Below are positions 17,087-29,924 of a DNA stretch of 37,395 nt, one piece after another (positions within the stretch are counted from its first letter, which is position 1; every line of letters begins with the position of its first letter). Under the pieces are notes generated by a model. It saw only the letters and a list, made by a program, of their open reading frames with translations, was not told the DNA's origin and did no database searches. The stretch is from Nitrosomonadales bacterium. Its GTDB lineage: Bacteria; Pseudomonadota; Gammaproteobacteria; Burkholderiales; Methylophilaceae. Both the position numbers and the translations under genes were made by a program. Where the stretch lies: the NCBI GenBank assembly GCA_024642775.1, contig JAHEAL010000011.1:1-37395 (forward strand). Reading direction: 5' to 3'.

Positions 17087-17626
17087 CTATTCGTTGCCTG
17101 TTAAACCTTTGCCATTACTTCTTACAAATGCAATGATTTTTAATAATTCATCTACTGTAACGCCGTCATCTGGTGCCATTAAGCCAAAACCTTTAGCGCC
17201 CATGCCGCCGTTTGTACCACCCCAGATGGTTTCAAACATACCCTTGTTTGTCGCATCTTTTGCGTAGTTATACTTTGGACCAGTTAGGCCAGGACCAACT
17301 TGACCTTTAGCTGTAGGACCATGACATTGAGTACATGACCATAGGTTGTATCTCTTTTTACCTGTTTTGATAGCTTCTGCGTCACCAACATAAATATTCT
17401 TACCGGTTGCTAAGAATTCTTTTTCTGCATCTGTACCAACTAATGCTTTTTCAGGAAACTTAATTTCACTATTATCTGAGGTTTTATTGAGTATTATTGA
17501 TTGTAATGATGTTTCACTAGTAATTTGATCATTTTTATTGATGGATGTACCACTGGATTCAAGTTCTGAATTTTCAGAACAGCTTAGCATTGCAAGGAAC
17601 AATAATAAAATTACAAATTTTTGCAT
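17087..17626 (-). CDS. Cytochrome cL-type protein with lipoprotein-like N-terminus (XoxG paralogue)
   Basis: The C-terminal 133 or so residues are identical to the neighbouring XoxG, including the single haem site CTQCHG (C98, C101, H102). The first 45 residues are unrelated to XoxG: MQKFVILLLFLAMLSCSEN looks like a lipoprotein signal with Cys16 as the lipidation site (positions -3 to -1 are M-L-S, a slightly weak lipobox), followed by a Ser/Thr/Asn-rich linker. The inferred product is a membrane-anchored version of the methanol dehydrogenase electron acceptor. It is separated from xoxG by that gene's terminator and is followed after 8 bp by ndh. It uses TAG as stop where xoxG uses TAA. Function is inferred; a conventional Sec signal with no lipidation is the alternative. 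Confidence 0.88.
   Translation of the reverse strand: MQKFVILLLFLAMLSCSENSELESSGTSINKNDQITSETSLQSIILNKTSDNSEIKFPEKALVGTDAEKEFLATGKNIYVGDAEAIKTGKKRYNLWSCTQCHGPTAKGQVGPGLTGPKYNYAKDATNKGMFETIWGGTNGGMGAKGFGLMAPDDGVTVDELLKIIAFVRSNGKGLTGNE
17088..17488. repeat. 401-bp direct repeat, copy A (in the lipoprotein-like cytochrome gene)
   Basis: By direct reading this stretch is identical base for base to 17701-18101 (offset 613 bp). It covers the cytochrome domain from the NKTSDN residues to the second base of the stop codon. Flanks diverge at once: the stop is TAG here and TAA in the other copy, and the leucine codon just outside the other end is CTC here but TTA there. Confidence 0.95.
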
Positions 17627-17699: not shown

Positions 17700-18188
17700 T
17701 TATTCGTTGCCTGTTAAACCTTTGCCATTACTTCTTACAAATGCAATGATTTTTAATAATTCATCTACTGTAACGCCGTCATCTGGTGCCATTAAGCCAA
17801 AACCTTTAGCGCCCATGCCGCCGTTTGTACCACCCCAGATGGTTTCAAACATACCCTTGTTTGTCGCATCTTTTGCGTAGTTATACTTTGGACCAGTTAG
17901 GCCAGGACCAACTTGACCTTTAGCTGTAGGACCATGACATTGAGTACATGACCATAGGTTGTATCTCTTTTTACCTGTTTTGATAGCTTCTGCGTCACCA
18001 ACATAAATATTCTTACCGGTTGCTAAGAATTCTTTTTCTGCATCTGTACCAACTAATGCTTTTTCAGGAAACTTAATTTCACTATTATCTGAGGTTTTAT
18101 TTAATTTAATGTTGGCTGCATAAGCAACTGCAGAAACACCAACAAGTGCTGCTAAAACTGATGAAACAACTACTTTTTTAGAAAACAT
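17700..18188 (-). CDS. xoxG: Cytochrome cL, electron acceptor of XoxF (XoxG)
   Basis: This is the soluble periplasmic monohaem cytochrome that accepts electrons from the PQQ methanol dehydrogenase. The start at ATG 18188 (a GGAGA Shine-Dalgarno lies 8 bp upstream) gives 162 residues with a clear Sec signal, MFSKKVVVSSVLAALVGVSA ending in AYA-A. The haem c site is CTQCHG (C81, C84, H85). Blocks typical of the MxaG/XoxG cytochrome cL family follow: GPKYNYAKDATNKGMFETIW, GGTNGGMGAKGFGLMAPDDG, VDELLKIIAFVRS. A longer open frame to 18224 is rejected because the ATG at 18188 carries the signal peptide and ribosome site. The gene lies in the usual xoxF-xoxJ-xoxG order and ends at its own terminator. 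Confidence 0.93.
   Translation of the reverse strand: MFSKKVVVSSVLAALVGVSAVAYAANIKLNKTSDNSEIKFPEKALVGTDAEKEFLATGKNIYVGDAEAIKTGKKRYNLWSCTQCHGPTAKGQVGPGLTGPKYNYAKDATNKGMFETIWGGTNGGMGAKGFGLMAPDDGVTVDELLKIIAFVRSNGKGLTGNE
17701..18101. repeat. 401-bp direct repeat, copy B (in xoxG)
   Basis: This is the partner of the 17088-17488 copy, in the same orientation and identical over the whole length by eye. The 212 bp between the copies hold the unrelated N-terminal part of the second cytochrome gene and the xoxG terminator, so this is not a simple head-to-tail duplication of a whole gene. Confidence 0.95.
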
Positions 18189-18291
18189 AATTTCTCCTAT
18201 TTCTATTTTTAGCAATCTTAACAATATAAAATCTTTACATTGTTATGACTATTAAAAGTACTTAATAGTTTAATAAATTAGACTATCAGGG

Positions 18292-22570: not shown

Positions 22571-23758
22571 ATGAAACAGTTGGTATGGAAAATTCGTTTT
22601 TTCTTCCATCACTTTAGTGAAAACTTAAAAAGACATCACTTTTTCTCACTTTGTGCTACCACTAGTTTTTATTTTTTATTCACTTTAATTCCATTTATTA
22701 TTTTAATCTTTTTGCTTCTTACCCGATGGGTATCAAACTCAGAAATAATTTTTAATGAATTAAATGAGATTACTAATAACCTGTTACCTGAAATTTCTGA
22801 CAGGATTATGAGTCAAGTAAAACAGTTTACAACAACGAAGGGATTAGGATGGATCTGGTTTGTTGTATTATTTTGGGCGGCCAGCCCCTTAGCTCAAGCC
22901 TTAAGGAAAAATTTTCAATTAATTTTTAATTATCAAATTAAAAGAAAGTTTATAACAAATAAATTGATAGACATTATCGTCTTATTGGCAATTATCTTTT
23001 TATTTTTTATCTATTTTATTTTATCTAAATACTTAAATTCTCTTGCCAATGTTTTCCATGGACTTATTCCATTTAGCGAAAAATCCCTAATCATAGTTAT
23101 ATTTTCAAGCATGCTAATTTTATTAATCATGTCAGTCTTTTTTCGAATAATGATACCGGTCAAAAAATTTTCAAGGGTTCTTATTCTTATCGGCGCAGGT
23201 GTTACTTGCTTTATTTGGATTAGCCTTCATGAAATGTTTGATTTCATCATGAGCATGAGTCAGGCTTACGGTATTTTTTATGGAAGCATGAGGAATTTAT
23301 TTGTTTCTTTAATTTGGCTCTTCCTAAATATCGCCGGACTCCTTGTTGGAGTTGAAGTCATTTCATTTATTTACGAAAAGAATCAATACAAATATCGTAT
23401 GTTATTTCTAAACCCAAGCAAATTACTTCTTAAAACTTATTTTCAACAAGACATCATTCGTTATAAAAAAGATGAGATAGTATTTAATCATGACAATCCA
23501 TCACTGTTTGTCTATTTTGTTGTAGATGGTCAGATCGAAACTACAATTAACGGCAATCAAAGAGTAATTTCGAACAATAATTATTTTGGTGAGCTATCTA
23601 TTATCAATAATACAAAAAGGGTTGGTAATGCAAGGGTGGTCTCCGACTGGGCAAAAGTTATAAAGATTCCAAATGCATTATTTAAAAAACTTCTTCGTCA
23701 GGATATAGAATTCCAAAACTTAATTCTTAAAAATCTTAATAAAATTATCATTAATTAA
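22571..23758 (+). CDS. YihY/BrkB membrane protein fused to a cyclic-nucleotide-binding-like domain
   Basis: Residues 1-270 are a YihY/BrkB (formerly 'RNase BN') inner membrane domain: ATTSFYFLFTLIPFIILIFLLL, the LFWAASPLAQALRKNF stretch, and helices up to LIWLFLNIAGLLVGVEV. Residues about 280-395 form a soluble cytoplasmic domain with the cNMP-binding (CAP_ED) pattern: IVFNHDNPSLFVYFVVDGQIE, the FGELSII cassette (339-345), and Arg350, aligned with the ligand Arg but followed by VG rather than the usual Ala-Ala/Thr. Most YihY proteins lack such a domain. The role of YihY is not settled; here the tail suggests control by a small ligand, or a structural relic if ligand binding is lost. It follows pip by 3 bp; its stop codon abuts the end of the convergent TPR gene. 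Confidence 0.82.
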   Translation: MKQLVWKIRFFFHHFSENLKRHHFFSLCATTSFYFLFTLIPFIILIFLLLTRWVSNSEIIFNELNEITNNLLPEISDRIMSQVKQFTTTKGLGWIWFVVLFWAASPLAQALRKNFQLIFNYQIKRKFITNKLIDIIVLLAIIFLFFIYFILSKYLNSLANVFHGLIPFSEKSLIIVIFSSMLILLIMSVFFRIMIPVKKFSRVLILIGAGVTCFIWISLHEMFDFIMSMSQAYGIFYGSMRNLFVSLIWLFLNIAGLLVGVEVISFIYEKNQYKYRMLFLNPSKLLLKTYFQQDIIRYKKDEIVFNHDNPSLFVYFVVDGQIETTINGNQRVISNNNYFGELSIINNTKRVGNARVVSDWAKVIKIPNALFKKLLRQDIEFQNLILKNLNKIIIN

Positions 23759-26744: not shown

Positions 26745-27635
26745 ATGATTATTGATTTTGAAAAAATTAAAGCAGCTCGTTTAAAATCTAAATTAAGCAT
26801 TGAAGTCGTTGCCTCCAACTGCAGCCTGTCTGTGCAACAAATTAAATCGATTGAAGAAAACAAGGGTGATGGTTTTTTTAATGATCACTTTAAAAAAATT
26901 GCTACTAAAAAATATATTGCTTTTCTCAATCTTTCTGAAGATGAAATTTTTCATATCAACAAGAAGGATGAATTGCTTGAACAACCTATCGAAAATGAAC
27001 CGTCTGTTGGTTCCGATCATGCCATCAAACCATCATTAAAATTTTTCATACCTAAATACATTAATTACACAATAATATTGGCTTTACTTTTTACTTTATT
27101 TTTAATTATCTTCAAAAAAACTGAAGATGATGTTTCTGAAAATATTATTGATAATGAGCTTTTACCTGAAATTCAAGAAGAGTCCATTCCAAAATTAGAG
27201 TCAGAGATACCCTTAGATATAATCTCAAATAATCAGGAAAACAAGGAATCCCCGAACTCGAATACATCCGCCGATATTAACGAAGGAACTATGACTCAGT
27301 TAAGTGATTCATGCGAATCTATTTTTAATCAAAATGAAAATAAGATATCGAATTATCAAACTCGACGAGTTCCTGAGAAGCCGAATAATTATATTCATTT
27401 AACTAGCACATCAAAACAAACTATTTGTATAAAAAGTCAAAATAAAGATGTGAAAGAGTATGAAATTGATGGATCTAATCCTTTAACTTTTAGAGGCTCT
27501 CCACCCTTCTTAATCTACCTTAATCCCATTTTAACTGAAATATTTTTCCAGGGCTGGAAGATTCCTCTAGATAATAATTTTAACTTATACCAAATCACCT
27601 CTTACCAAGATCCAACATTATCCAACTTCCAATAG
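26745..27635 (+). CDS. RodZ-like protein (HTH, one membrane helix, DUF4115)
   Basis: This 296-residue protein shows the RodZ plan: a cytoplasmic N-terminal helix-turn-helix domain (about 5-70; IKAARLKSKLSIEVVASNCSL, VQQIKSIEENKG), a basic stretch, one membrane helix (about 104-121, INYTIILALLFTLFLIIF), a Glu/Asn-rich periplasmic linker, and a C-terminal domain like DUF4115 (IHLTSTSKQTICIKS, then FRGSPPFLIYLNPILTEIFFQGW). RodZ links MreB to the peptidoglycan machinery and helps keep rod shape. The usual neighbour ispG is absent. The start is ATG 26745. The 3' end overlaps the convergent umuC gene by 18 bp. Confidence 0.78.
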   Translation: MIIDFEKIKAARLKSKLSIEVVASNCSLSVQQIKSIEENKGDGFFNDHFKKIATKKYIAFLNLSEDEIFHINKKDELLEQPIENEPSVGSDHAIKPSLKFFIPKYINYTIILALLFTLFLIIFKKTEDDVSENIIDNELLPEIQEESIPKLESEIPLDIISNNQENKESPNSNTSADINEGTMTQLSDSCESIFNQNENKISNYQTRRVPEKPNNYIHLTSTSKQTICIKSQNKDVKEYEIDGSNPLTFRGSPPFLIYLNPILTEIFFQGWKIPLDNNFNLYQITSYQDPTLSNFQ

Positions 27636-28862
27636 TTCATTCCATGACGTGGTGTATCGCTTGCTCTTATTAAGCTGCTTCATTCCCCATAAAGGATTTT
27701 TATTCTGCCATCCACTTACAATCATATCTTTAGCATATTTCCTATTAATAGCATCTAATGTATCAATAAGTTTAGATTCAGCCACCTCTTTGCTGTAATC
27801 ATAATTTACTCCAAAACTTTCTTTTAAGTTACCTAAAATAATTCCTGCTTTGTGGTAATCAATATCATTTTTATAAATTTTTTTAAGTCCTTCAATCACC
27901 AGCCTATTCAAAATACGACTGTCATTAGTGTAATACTCACATCGCATAGTAATTGAATTCTCAATTAATCTTTTTTCTGCAAATCGATTATTACGAATAA
28001 ATATAAATACCTGATTGGTTTGTAGGCCTTGGGTTCTGAGTTTTAATGAGGCTTTTTGAACAAATGTTATTAATGCATCCGCCATGCTTTTAAAGTCTCT
28101 AATTTTTTGACCGAAACTTCTGGAACAAATAATCTGTTTTTGAGGTAGTTTTTTGGATGTTACCGGATAACACGAAACTCCGTTCAACTCATAGACCATG
28201 CGCTCAATATTTATACCAAACAGCTGCTTGATCCATTTTGGGTTTGCTAACTTTAGTTCCCAAATCGAATAAATTCCTAGTTCATTAATTTTCTTGGTAA
28301 GGCGACCACCGACTCCCCAAAGATTTGAAATTGATGTTTCAATCATGATTTGTTCTAAGTCTTTCCTGTACGGACCCTCAAAGCTGACTACCCCTTCATA
28401 AACGTTGTATTTTTTCGCAATATAATTTGCCAGTTTAGCTAAAGTTTTTGTCTTACCGATACCTACACAAACAGGCAGGCCTAAATTTTTAAAAACTTCA
28501 TAACGAATTGAATAACCATAATCTAAATATTCTTGCTGATTAAGCTTTAGGAAACACTCATCTATAGAATAAACTTCTTGATCAACGCTATATTGATTGA
28601 GAAAATTCATTACACGGCCGCTTAGGTCAGCATACAATGGGTAATTTGAAGAATAAACAGTTACATTATGCTCAGTGATTAATTTTTTCGCTTTAAAAAA
28701 TGGCATCCCCATTTTAATGCCAATCTTTTTAGCCTCATCGCTTCTGGAGATAATGCATCCATCATTATTACTTAAAACAACGACAGGTTTATTTTGAATA
28801 CGCTTATTAAATAATCGTTCGCAACTGACATAGAAGTTGTTAACATCAACTAACGCAATCAT
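27618..28862 (-). CDS. umuC: DNA polymerase V catalytic subunit UmuC (Y family)
   Basis: This 414-residue error-prone translesion polymerase is made active by cleaved UmuD'. The catalytic acidic residues are visible: Asp6 in MIALVDVNNFYVSCERLF, and Asp101-Glu102 in YSIDECFL. SNNDGCIISRSDEAKKIGIKMG is the usual fingers region. The helix-hairpin-helix thumb has CVGIGKTKTLAKLANYIAK and SNLWGVGGRL. The C-terminal part contains RSFGQ and a QLN near the end, at about the position of the beta-clamp binding motif of E. coli UmuC. Its ATG at 28862 overlaps the umuD stop by 4 bp, so the pair is translationally coupled. The 3' end overlaps the convergent RodZ-like gene. Confidence 0.96.
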   Translation of the reverse strand: MIALVDVNNFYVSCERLFNKRIQNKPVVVLSNNDGCIISRSDEAKKIGIKMGMPFFKAKKLITEHNVTVYSSNYPLYADLSGRVMNFLNQYSVDQEVYSIDECFLKLNQQEYLDYGYSIRYEVFKNLGLPVCVGIGKTKTLAKLANYIAKKYNVYEGVVSFEGPYRKDLEQIMIETSISNLWGVGGRLTKKINELGIYSIWELKLANPKWIKQLFGINIERMVYELNGVSCYPVTSKKLPQKQIICSRSFGQKIRDFKSMADALITFVQKASLKLRTQGLQTNQVFIFIRNNRFAEKRLIENSITMRCEYYTNDSRILNRLVIEGLKKIYKNDIDYHKAGIILGNLKESFGVNYDYSKEVAESKLIDTLDAINRKYAKDMIVSGWQNKNPLWGMKQLNKSKRYTTSWNELLEVG

Positions 28863-29446
28863 GTTTTGAATTTTCTAACAGACCCTGTAACCACTCCCCA
28901 TATTTCAAACTGACTTCCGGGGTTAATGTGAATTGGCTTAAATTCTTTATTAGCAGCCATTAGATAAGGGCCATCCATGTTCTTAGCTAGCACCTTAACT
29001 GTAAATTCTCCGTCTATTGATGCCAATACGATATCGTTAATAGCAGCTACTTTTGATCGATCGACAATAACAATATCGTTATCGAGTATTCCAGCATCGA
29101 TCATGGATTCACCTTTGATCCTGACAAAAAAAGTTGTCTCGCTTTGGTCTACTAAATACTCATTCAAATCTAATTTTTTTTCCGAATAATCATCAGCAGG
29201 AGATGGAAATCCAGCAGGTACTTTATGGCTAAATAACGTTATGGGATTAGTTACTGGAAAATTATCAGGCAGAAAAAAATCTCTCACATTAAAATTTTTT
29301 TTATCCTGCAACAAATAATTTTTAACTTCGTCCACTCGACTTTTGGGAACTCTTAACACTTTCGTCTGCTCGGAATAGAGACCCGTCCCTTTTTTTCTTC
29401 CAGAGCCATTTCTGTAACCACCATGTTTTATTTTTTTATTATCCAT
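28859..29446 (-). CDS. umuD: UmuD with basic N-terminal extension (LexA-like autopeptidase)
   Basis: This is a 195-residue UmuD, about 55 longer than E. coli UmuD (139). Residues from about 72 on match UmuD: the cleavage site A78-G79 in KVPAGFPSPADDY, catalytic Ser114 in KGESMIDAGI, and Lys151 in DGEFTVKVL. The added N-terminal part (about 1-60) is basic: KHGGYRNGSGRKKGTG, then TKVLRVPKSRVDEVKNYLL, which could form a strand and helix of a DNA-binding unit. After damage, RecA would trigger self-cleavage, giving UmuD' for polymerase V and also separating the N-terminal part. A 29-bp palindrome touches the start codon, suggesting that the extended form represses its own gene. It is coupled to umuC. 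Confidence 0.94.
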   Translation of the reverse strand: MDNKKIKHGGYRNGSGRKKGTGLYSEQTKVLRVPKSRVDEVKNYLLQDKKNFNVRDFFLPDNFPVTNPITLFSHKVPAGFPSPADDYSEKKLDLNEYLVDQSETTFFVRIKGESMIDAGILDNDIVIVDRSKVAAINDIVLASIDGEFTVKVLAKNMDGPYLMAANKEFKPIHINPGSQFEIWGVVTGSVRKFKT

Positions 29447-29474
29447 TTTTGATTAATGTTACATTAATCAAAAA
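29446..29474. promoter_or_regulatory. 29-bp palindromic operator at the umuD start (UmuDAb-box-like)
   Basis: The arms TTTTTGATTAATGT (29446-29459) and ACATTAATCAAAAA (29461-29474) are perfect inverted repeats around a single central T. The first base is the A of the umuD ATG read on the minus strand. A minus-strand TATAAT (29507-29502) lies upstream, so a bound repressor would sit between the promoter and the start codon. The core ATGTTACAT flanked by TTGA/TCAA resembles the published Acinetobacter UmuDAb site (TTGAAAATGT and its mirror image). It does not match the usual betaproteobacterial LexA box CTGT-N8-ACAG. Confidence 0.7.
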
Positions 29475-29651: not shown

Positions 29652-29924
29652 ATGAATAAAGGCGAACTTATAGATGCAATTGCAGGTGCAACAGGCTCAA
29701 CAAAAGCTGATGCAGGTCGTGCTCTAGACGCTACAATTGAGAGCATTACAAAAGCTCTTAAAAAAGGAGATACAGTAACATTGATTGGTTTTGGTACTTT
29801 TAAAGTAACAAAGAGAGCAGCGCGTACAGGACGTAACCCGCAAACTGGTGCAGAACTAAAAATACCAGCACGTAAAGTTCCATCATTCAAAGCAGGCGCA
29901 GGTCTTAAGTCAGCAGTTAACTAA
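29652..29924 (+). CDS. hupB: Nucleoid protein HU-beta
   Basis: This 90-residue HU protein is full length: [20 protein letters not shown], the GFGTFKV turn, the [12 protein letters not shown] beta-arm with the DNA-intercalating Pro, and the [18 protein letters not shown] end. HU bends and compacts DNA. It has the strongest ribosome site seen in the window, GGAGG at 29641-29645, 6 bp before ATG 29652, and is followed by a strong terminator, so high expression is expected. The 205-bp space to the divergent umuD holds a TTGACA at 29517-29522 but no good -10 at the right distance. The gene is monocistronic. Confidence 0.97.

Follow-up and report, generated by a model that had tools for sequence, protein, structure and literature searches.

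In most bacteria the umuDC operon is repressed by LexA. The locus described here raises the question of what represses umuDC when UmuD itself carries an additional N-terminal domain and a palindrome touches its start codon. The window, that is, the whole stretch of 37,395 nucleotides that was analysed, belongs to a methanol-using Nitrosomonadales bacterium with a small genome of 1.15 Mb (91.6% complete). Reasoning from sequence and from analogy, we consider it very probable that the extended UmuD represses its own operon, umuDC, as a switch of the UmuDAb kind. The basis for this is the anatomy of the locus, the conservation of the cleavage residues and of the site, the linkage between the site and the N-terminal domain, homology to UmuDAb and the finding of no LexA.

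Both genes lie on the minus strand: umuD (28859..29446, 195 aa, N-terminally extended), the proposed autorepressor and UmuD′ precursor, and umuC (27618..28862, 414 aa), whose start codon overlaps the umuD stop codon in a shared ATGA. The umuC product matched IMS, IMS_C and DUF4113 and scored 345 bits against the UmuC model PRK03609, below the cut-off of 431. The sole Pfam match above cut-off in the umuD product was Peptidase_S24 (residues 74-186, E 2.3e-29), which is preceded by 73 residues, versus the short arm of E. coli-type UmuD. The protein scored above the cut-off for the UmuD subfamily PRK10276 (150.5 bits, cut-off 110) and below that for LexA, TIGR00498 (86.5 bits, cut-off 110.95), which covered residues 75-193 only.

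The UmuD-type S24 domain, the A-G cleavage site and the Ser/Lys dyad are all present. In an alignment of 57 homologues G79, the catalytic serine Ser114 (29105..29107, minus strand) and the catalytic lysine Lys151 (28994..28996, minus strand) were invariant and A78 was at least 90% conserved. The predicted site of RecA-stimulated self-cleavage, Ala78-Gly79, is thus placed at 29210..29215 (minus strand) by translation and conservation. The original prediction had described a 195-residue UmuD with a basic N-terminal extension, an AG site and a Ser114/Lys151 dyad, and the translation and the alignment agree with this description.

Residues 1-51 (29294..29446, minus strand) make up the N-terminal domain, which is proposed to bind DNA; it is defined by an AlphaFold2 model and by invariant residues and has no Pfam family. 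It contains a GGxRxGxGRK motif, an extended segment, TKVLRVP, and a single helix, residues 35-51, in a model whose mean pLDDT was 92 at residues 31-40 and 54-66 at residues 1-20. Residues 1-40 contain 11 K/R and 4 D/E. Across 36 N-termini whose records carry the labels of several phyla, G9, G10, R12, G16, R17, R32 and P34 were invariant. No credible Pfam family was found in residues 1-73, and besides Peptidase_S24 none of Pfam's families recurred in more than two of the 57 homologues. Credible matches in PDB searches were confined to the C-terminal domain, the best match of the N-terminal profile having an E of 0.11, and neither the Pfam nor the PDB searches found a recognised DNA-binding fold for the N-terminal domain.

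An alignment of this N-terminus with UmuDAb had been suggested as a check, and the two proved homologous. The N-terminal domains of two UmuDAb proteins, one encoded beside a ddrR-like gene (L081) and the other from A. pittii (L182), align with the entire window N-terminus; identity to the A. pittii domain is 46%, and ten residues (G, G, R, G, E, T, R, P, S and L) are invariant in the nine aligned sequences. AlphaFold2 lays out the window and A. pittii proteins alike, with a glycine/basic stretch of low confidence, an extended TKVxRVP segment and one helix (35-51 in the window, 33-49 in A. pittii). A LexA-like HTH was proposed for UmuDAb by earlier modelling, according to passages of PMC4807011 and PMC11332147; the two AlphaFold2 models (pTM 0.55 and 0.51) do not support such a fold and have one helix instead. 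We infer that the domain contacts DNA.

The record containing L081 (CAKLQH020000001.1) is labelled Acinetobacter phage MD-2021a, and its genes appear to be Acinetobacter chromosomal genes (ddrR-like, umuDAb, rhtB, lrp).

Since the window protein and UmuDAb have homologous N-terminal domains, the domain was not invented separately here. The idea that the window case would be a separate instance of the UmuDAb logic has to be given up, the domain and the operator being common to UmuDAb and other lineages. Judged by sequence, the UmuDAb logic is found here, beyond Acinetobacter, by shared ancestry of the domain.

The proposed operator is a perfect inverted repeat at 29446..29474. Its arms (29446-29459 and 29461-29474, 14 nt each) are 100% complementary with 1 nt between them. 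As had been claimed, the repeat is perfect and touches the start codon, base 29446 being the A of the umuD ATG. The 23-bp core (29449-29471) is TTGATTAATGTTACATTAATCAA and has the form TTGA-N5-GTTAC-N5-TCAA. The UmuDAb operator has been published as TTGA(N4)GTWAC(N4)TCAA (in the part of PMC11332147 that deals with it); the predicted likeness of the core to it holds for the TTGA/TCAA arms and the GTWAC core. The site is also, as stated at the outset, unlike a LexA box, the best match to CTGTN8ACAG upstream of the window umuD having 5 of 8 bases. With up to 3 mismatches allowed, a 25-mer core of the palindrome occurred once in the window (none in 100 shuffles) and had a single place in the whole 1.15-Mb genome (none for the reversed-pattern control). 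The exact pattern TTGAN5GTWACN5TCAA likewise has a single place in this genome. No second regulated site was found there, the 3 extra places with 1 mismatch being about as many as in the reversed-pattern control (2).

Conservation of the palindrome in related genomes had been proposed as a check, and the site was kept in all 30 best-matching loci (L003-L032; 21 of the window's genus, the window included, and 9 of a related genus, g14). In each of them it directly precedes the umuD ATG or is only a few bases away from it, with 13 of the 13 specified bases in 29 loci and 12 in the other. A family set of 72 umuD places, comprising these 30 loci and 40 picked by hand from a longer family list, was then scored with two patterns: a strict form, with a GTWAC core and two spacers of the same length (4 or 5), and a general form, in which the core is GTWAC or GTAC and the spacers are 4-6. 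The strict form matched with at least 12 of 13 bases at 44 of the 72 places (shuffles 0.0000). The general form was found at 51 places with at most one mismatch (shuffles 0.3%) and at 65 with at most two (shuffles 7.5%). An exact search across 150 family genomes returned 67 sites, spread over 55 of the genomes, against 9 for the reversed pattern (counted by hand from the table); about 16 of the 67 resembled background when judged by eye.

The half-sites also vary together. Among 48 distinct sites the fraction complementary at positions 5 and 19 was 0.79, where 0.54 was expected (0 of 2000 shuffles as high), the related sites among the 48 not being independent. Complementarity was also high at positions 8/16 (12 of 2000 shuffles) and 9/15 (21 of 2000) and fell below expectation at 7/17. 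That the half-sites change together fits a symmetric, dimeric binder.

The linkage between the site and the domain was assessed in an even sample of the class, which was drawn regardless of the operator and comprised 369 genomes, 47 of them with a match; the GTAC core had been added to the patterns after the named loci were viewed and before this sample was drawn. Of 57 matches listed, 49 were fetched and 48 scored: the window's own genome and seven others were left out, and L260, cut by a contig end, was left unscored. With at most one mismatch the general form stood before 18 of 30 genes with the domain and before none of 18 without it (Fisher p 2e-5; shuffles 0.2% and 0%, respectively), 12 of the 30 thus having no site at this threshold. 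A chance match to the pattern had put L273 among the genes with the domain, and L259, which has a variant domain, had been placed among those without it; when both are removed the counts become 18/29 and 0/17. With at most two mismatches, 25 of the 30 genes with the domain had a site (shuffles 6%). Read by eye, the core is GTAC in 14 of these 18 positives and of the window's GTWAC type in 4; most of the signal across the class thus derives from a sister form of the window's site. A perfect CTGT-N8-ACAG box was found at 4 of the 18 genes without the domain and at none of the 30 with it.

In the named set the general form was present at 58 of 73 genes with the domain and at none of 7 without; this set is biased towards domain-bearing proteins because the similarity query carried the domain. 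The set includes Nitrosomonas, Acinetobacter, Thioglobus/SUP05, Legionella, Methylococcus and Opitutales, and the GTAC-core form occurs in PS1/OCS116 alphaproteobacteria and Actinomarina. No upstream site was found for two extended umuD genes labelled Planctomycetota (L180 and L181).

These counts bear on the possibility that a different repressor binds the palindrome and that the extension of UmuD serves otherwise, for example in binding DNA or UmuC during lesion bypass. The extension has no recognised DNA-binding fold, as noted above, and passages of PMC11332147 report that in A. baumannii UmuDAb is assisted by a corepressor, DdrR; both points speak for a second protein. No match to a DdrR homologue was found in 31 genomes of the window's genus, in a search run without a positive control. 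The site, however, tracks the extension across taxa, and umuD genes that lack the extension either lack the site or, in part, have LexA-type boxes instead. We therefore regard a different repressor as unlikely and prefer UmuD itself as the binder.

The position of the site relative to the promoter was then considered. In 46 of the 72 family umuD genes the ATG is preceded, at exactly 6 nt, by the hexamer TACAAT; a Shine-Dalgarno-like motif was found in none of the 72. These two observations suggest that the operator probably covers the -10 and the start of a leaderless umuDC message. The corresponding hexamer of the window, TAACAT (29456..29461, minus strand), is a possible -10 that lies within the operator, 9 nt ahead of the ATG. 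When the window was scanned for consensus promoters, no sigma-70 pair turned up at the umuD site; coverage of the -10 in the window itself is on these grounds a presumption.

The -10-like hexamer that relatives carry inside the palindrome, beside the ATG, might alternatively mean that the palindrome is only a conserved promoter, or an RNA hairpin governing umuD translation. As RNA, the window's perfect copy does pair better than its shuffles (z -2.5, with 3 of 200 shuffles as good). Yet both half-sites are conserved, including the one upstream of the -10, many relatives keep the sequence with imperfect pairing, and in the Acinetobacter locus L081 the gap between the site and the start codon is about 45 nt. 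The position of the hexamer, moreover, would put the transcript start at about the ATG, so that a hairpin would not be transcribed. The hairpin was rejected on this leaderless arrangement, despite the z of -2.5, and a mere promoter or hairpin appears very improbable beside an operator bound by UmuD.

A search for a canonical LexA had been proposed as a further check, and none was found in the window's genome or in 31 genomes of its genus. The former (91.6% complete) has only one S24 protein, UmuD. Of the 31, of which only 14 reach 90% completeness with no more than 5% contamination, 28 have exactly one S24 protein and three have none; the single match falls at the umuD place in 21 of the 28, the other seven including one partial hit. 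In the family PF01726 was matched in 15 of 150 genomes at E 0.001, 7 of them over the cut-off; by itself it is a poor test, and the absence of LexA therefore rests on PF00717. More widely, LexA scored above the model cut-off in 8 of 33 tested genomes (of the 80 named), so an extended UmuD can coexist with LexA; in these 8 the umuD site is, by eye, still of the UmuDAb type or the GTAC form.

LexA-type boxes in the family were examined by eye. Boxes like TTGTACGNNCGTACAA were seen at no fewer than 7 of 17 domain-less umuD-like genes and at all 3 lexA-like genes (L130-L132, L114-L116, L119, L121, L122 and L124). Among the 17 domain-less genes there were also one GAACGATCGTTC box and two UmuDAb-type sites (L126 and L127). 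That LexA represses umuDC in the window organism is hardly credible and was rejected: LexA-like genes do occur in some related genera and the assembly is incomplete, but the sole S24 protein of the genome is UmuD, none of the 31 genus genomes has more than one, and the TTGTACGNNCGTACAA-like boxes of the family are unlike the window site.

For a self-repressing UmuD, repression, cleavage and induction of umuDC can be pictured by analogy, and we infer the following course. Dimers of uncleaved UmuD would occupy the palindrome, and with it the -10 and the start of an almost leaderless umuDC transcript, shutting RNA polymerase out of the operon. On DNA damage, RecA filaments would stimulate self-cleavage between Ala78 and Gly79, parting the N-terminal DNA-binding portion from the dimer-forming C-terminal domain. 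This would lift repression and at the same time yield UmuD′, the active polymerase V subunit. A single protein would then be sensor, repressor and product, without LexA.

It had also been suggested that the protein might regulate other genes. This finds no support in the window's genome, with its one site, and some in relatives. There the site precedes domain-less umuDC operons (L107 in G011, L109 and L241 in G087, and, more weakly, L126 and L127) and lone umuC genes (L106, and L239 and L240 in G140). In three genomes of the window's genus it lies directly before a gene for a 59-73 aa HTH protein with a sub-threshold AlpA match (L083, L085, L242 and L245). The stop codon of this gene comes earlier in L242 and L245 than in L083. 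One site lies about 50 bp from a gene named by eye as mutL (L244).

The divergent neighbour of umuDC in the window is an HU-like gene (29652..29924, plus strand), identified as an ORF and given for context only; an HU-type start, MNKGELI, was found on the divergent side in all 30 loci L003-L032. Elsewhere in the window two tandem cytochrome c genes (17087-17626 and 17700-18224, minus strand) are identical at 407 of their last 420 bases and differ in their N-termini; they adjoin genes that, from their translations by eye, are xoxJ-like and xoxF-like. A YihY-like membrane protein (22571-23758, plus strand) has an apparent cyclic-nucleotide-binding segment at its C-terminus, again by eye.

The logic of the switch is already known from UmuDAb; what is claimed as new is its wider occurrence, as a kind that is old and widespread. 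A search of the open-access literature found no report of a UmuDAb-type circuit outside Acinetobacter. In passages of PMC8565304 and PMC7273328 UmuDAb regulation is described from Acinetobacter or Moraxellaceae, and one section heading of PMC11332147 calls features of the operator unique to Acinetobacter.

A broader reading can be offered tentatively, as one that we think somewhat less probable than its contrary. The self-repressing UmuD with its N-terminal domain and a TTGA-(N4-6)-GT(W)AC-(N4-6)-TCAA operator may represent a third kind of SOS regulator, ancient and widely distributed over Proteobacteria, Verrucomicrobia and Actinomycetota, of which the Acinetobacter UmuDAb would be one tip. 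LexA-controlled UmuD proteins such as that of E. coli would then be derived, the domain having been lost when LexA took over the promoter. The domain might read DNA in a new way, contacting the GTWAC core through a ribbon or helix pair made by two chains and the AT-rich flanks through GRK/GRP arms. An unrooted tree of the C-terminal domain (104 rows, 123 columns, quick method) had at least 11 label changes, 5 of them forced by starred branches; with so few columns and no root, gain and loss of the domain look alike in it.

Should the domain and the operator function together in the proposed way, a one-protein damage switch for the mutagenic polymerase V would exist in many other bacteria, among them several in which no LexA was detected and some that are streamlined and marine. 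This would give organisms thought to be without an SOS circuit a testable one, and the operator would serve as a motif for finding regulons. The putative DNA-binding domain is unclassified, and the tripartite operator could receive a structural explanation through it.

Among known systems UmuDAb is the closest, its DNA binding and repression having been published (in passages of PMC11332147 and PMC4807011). It and the window protein have in common a homologous N-terminal domain, a UmuD-type self-cleaving C-terminal domain, a genome in which no LexA is found, and TTGA/TCAA arms with a GTWAC core at their own promoters. The UmuDAb-type site of L081, TTGAAAATGTAACTTTTTCAA (L081:2424-2444), is an example. 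They differ in the spacers, N5 in the window and N4 in Acinetobacter, where some extended UmuD proteins also have N5 (L152, L153 and L158). The window site would lie over the -10 and start whereas in Acinetobacter it overlaps -35 elements, as described in part of PMC7273328, and the divergent neighbour is an HU gene in the window and ddrR in Acinetobacter. In A. baumannii UmuDAb sites are also found before several umuDC or umuC genes (in the relevant part of PMC11332147).

With LexA the window protein shares the logic of a self-cleaving S24 repressor; it differs in having neither the LexA DNA-binding domain (no PF01726) nor a LexA box. Proteins of the E. coli UmuD and MucA type are not known to have the domain of about 50 residues. 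They resemble the window protein in the umuDC operon and in the C-terminal domain, which is 41% identical to UmuD′ (1umu), and the match of E. coli-type UmuD proteins to the window protein begins near residue 15. Unlike the window gene, the domain-less umuD genes of the class sample have no UmuDAb-type site, and some carry the perfect CTGTN8ACAG box counted above. HdiR, the Bacteroidetes LexA-like repressors and Francisella FddR are S24 regulators of the damage response other than LexA, grouped with phage repressors or given a separate clade (in passages of PMC8565304 and PMC13148647); the window protein differs from these in being a UmuD with another N-terminal domain.
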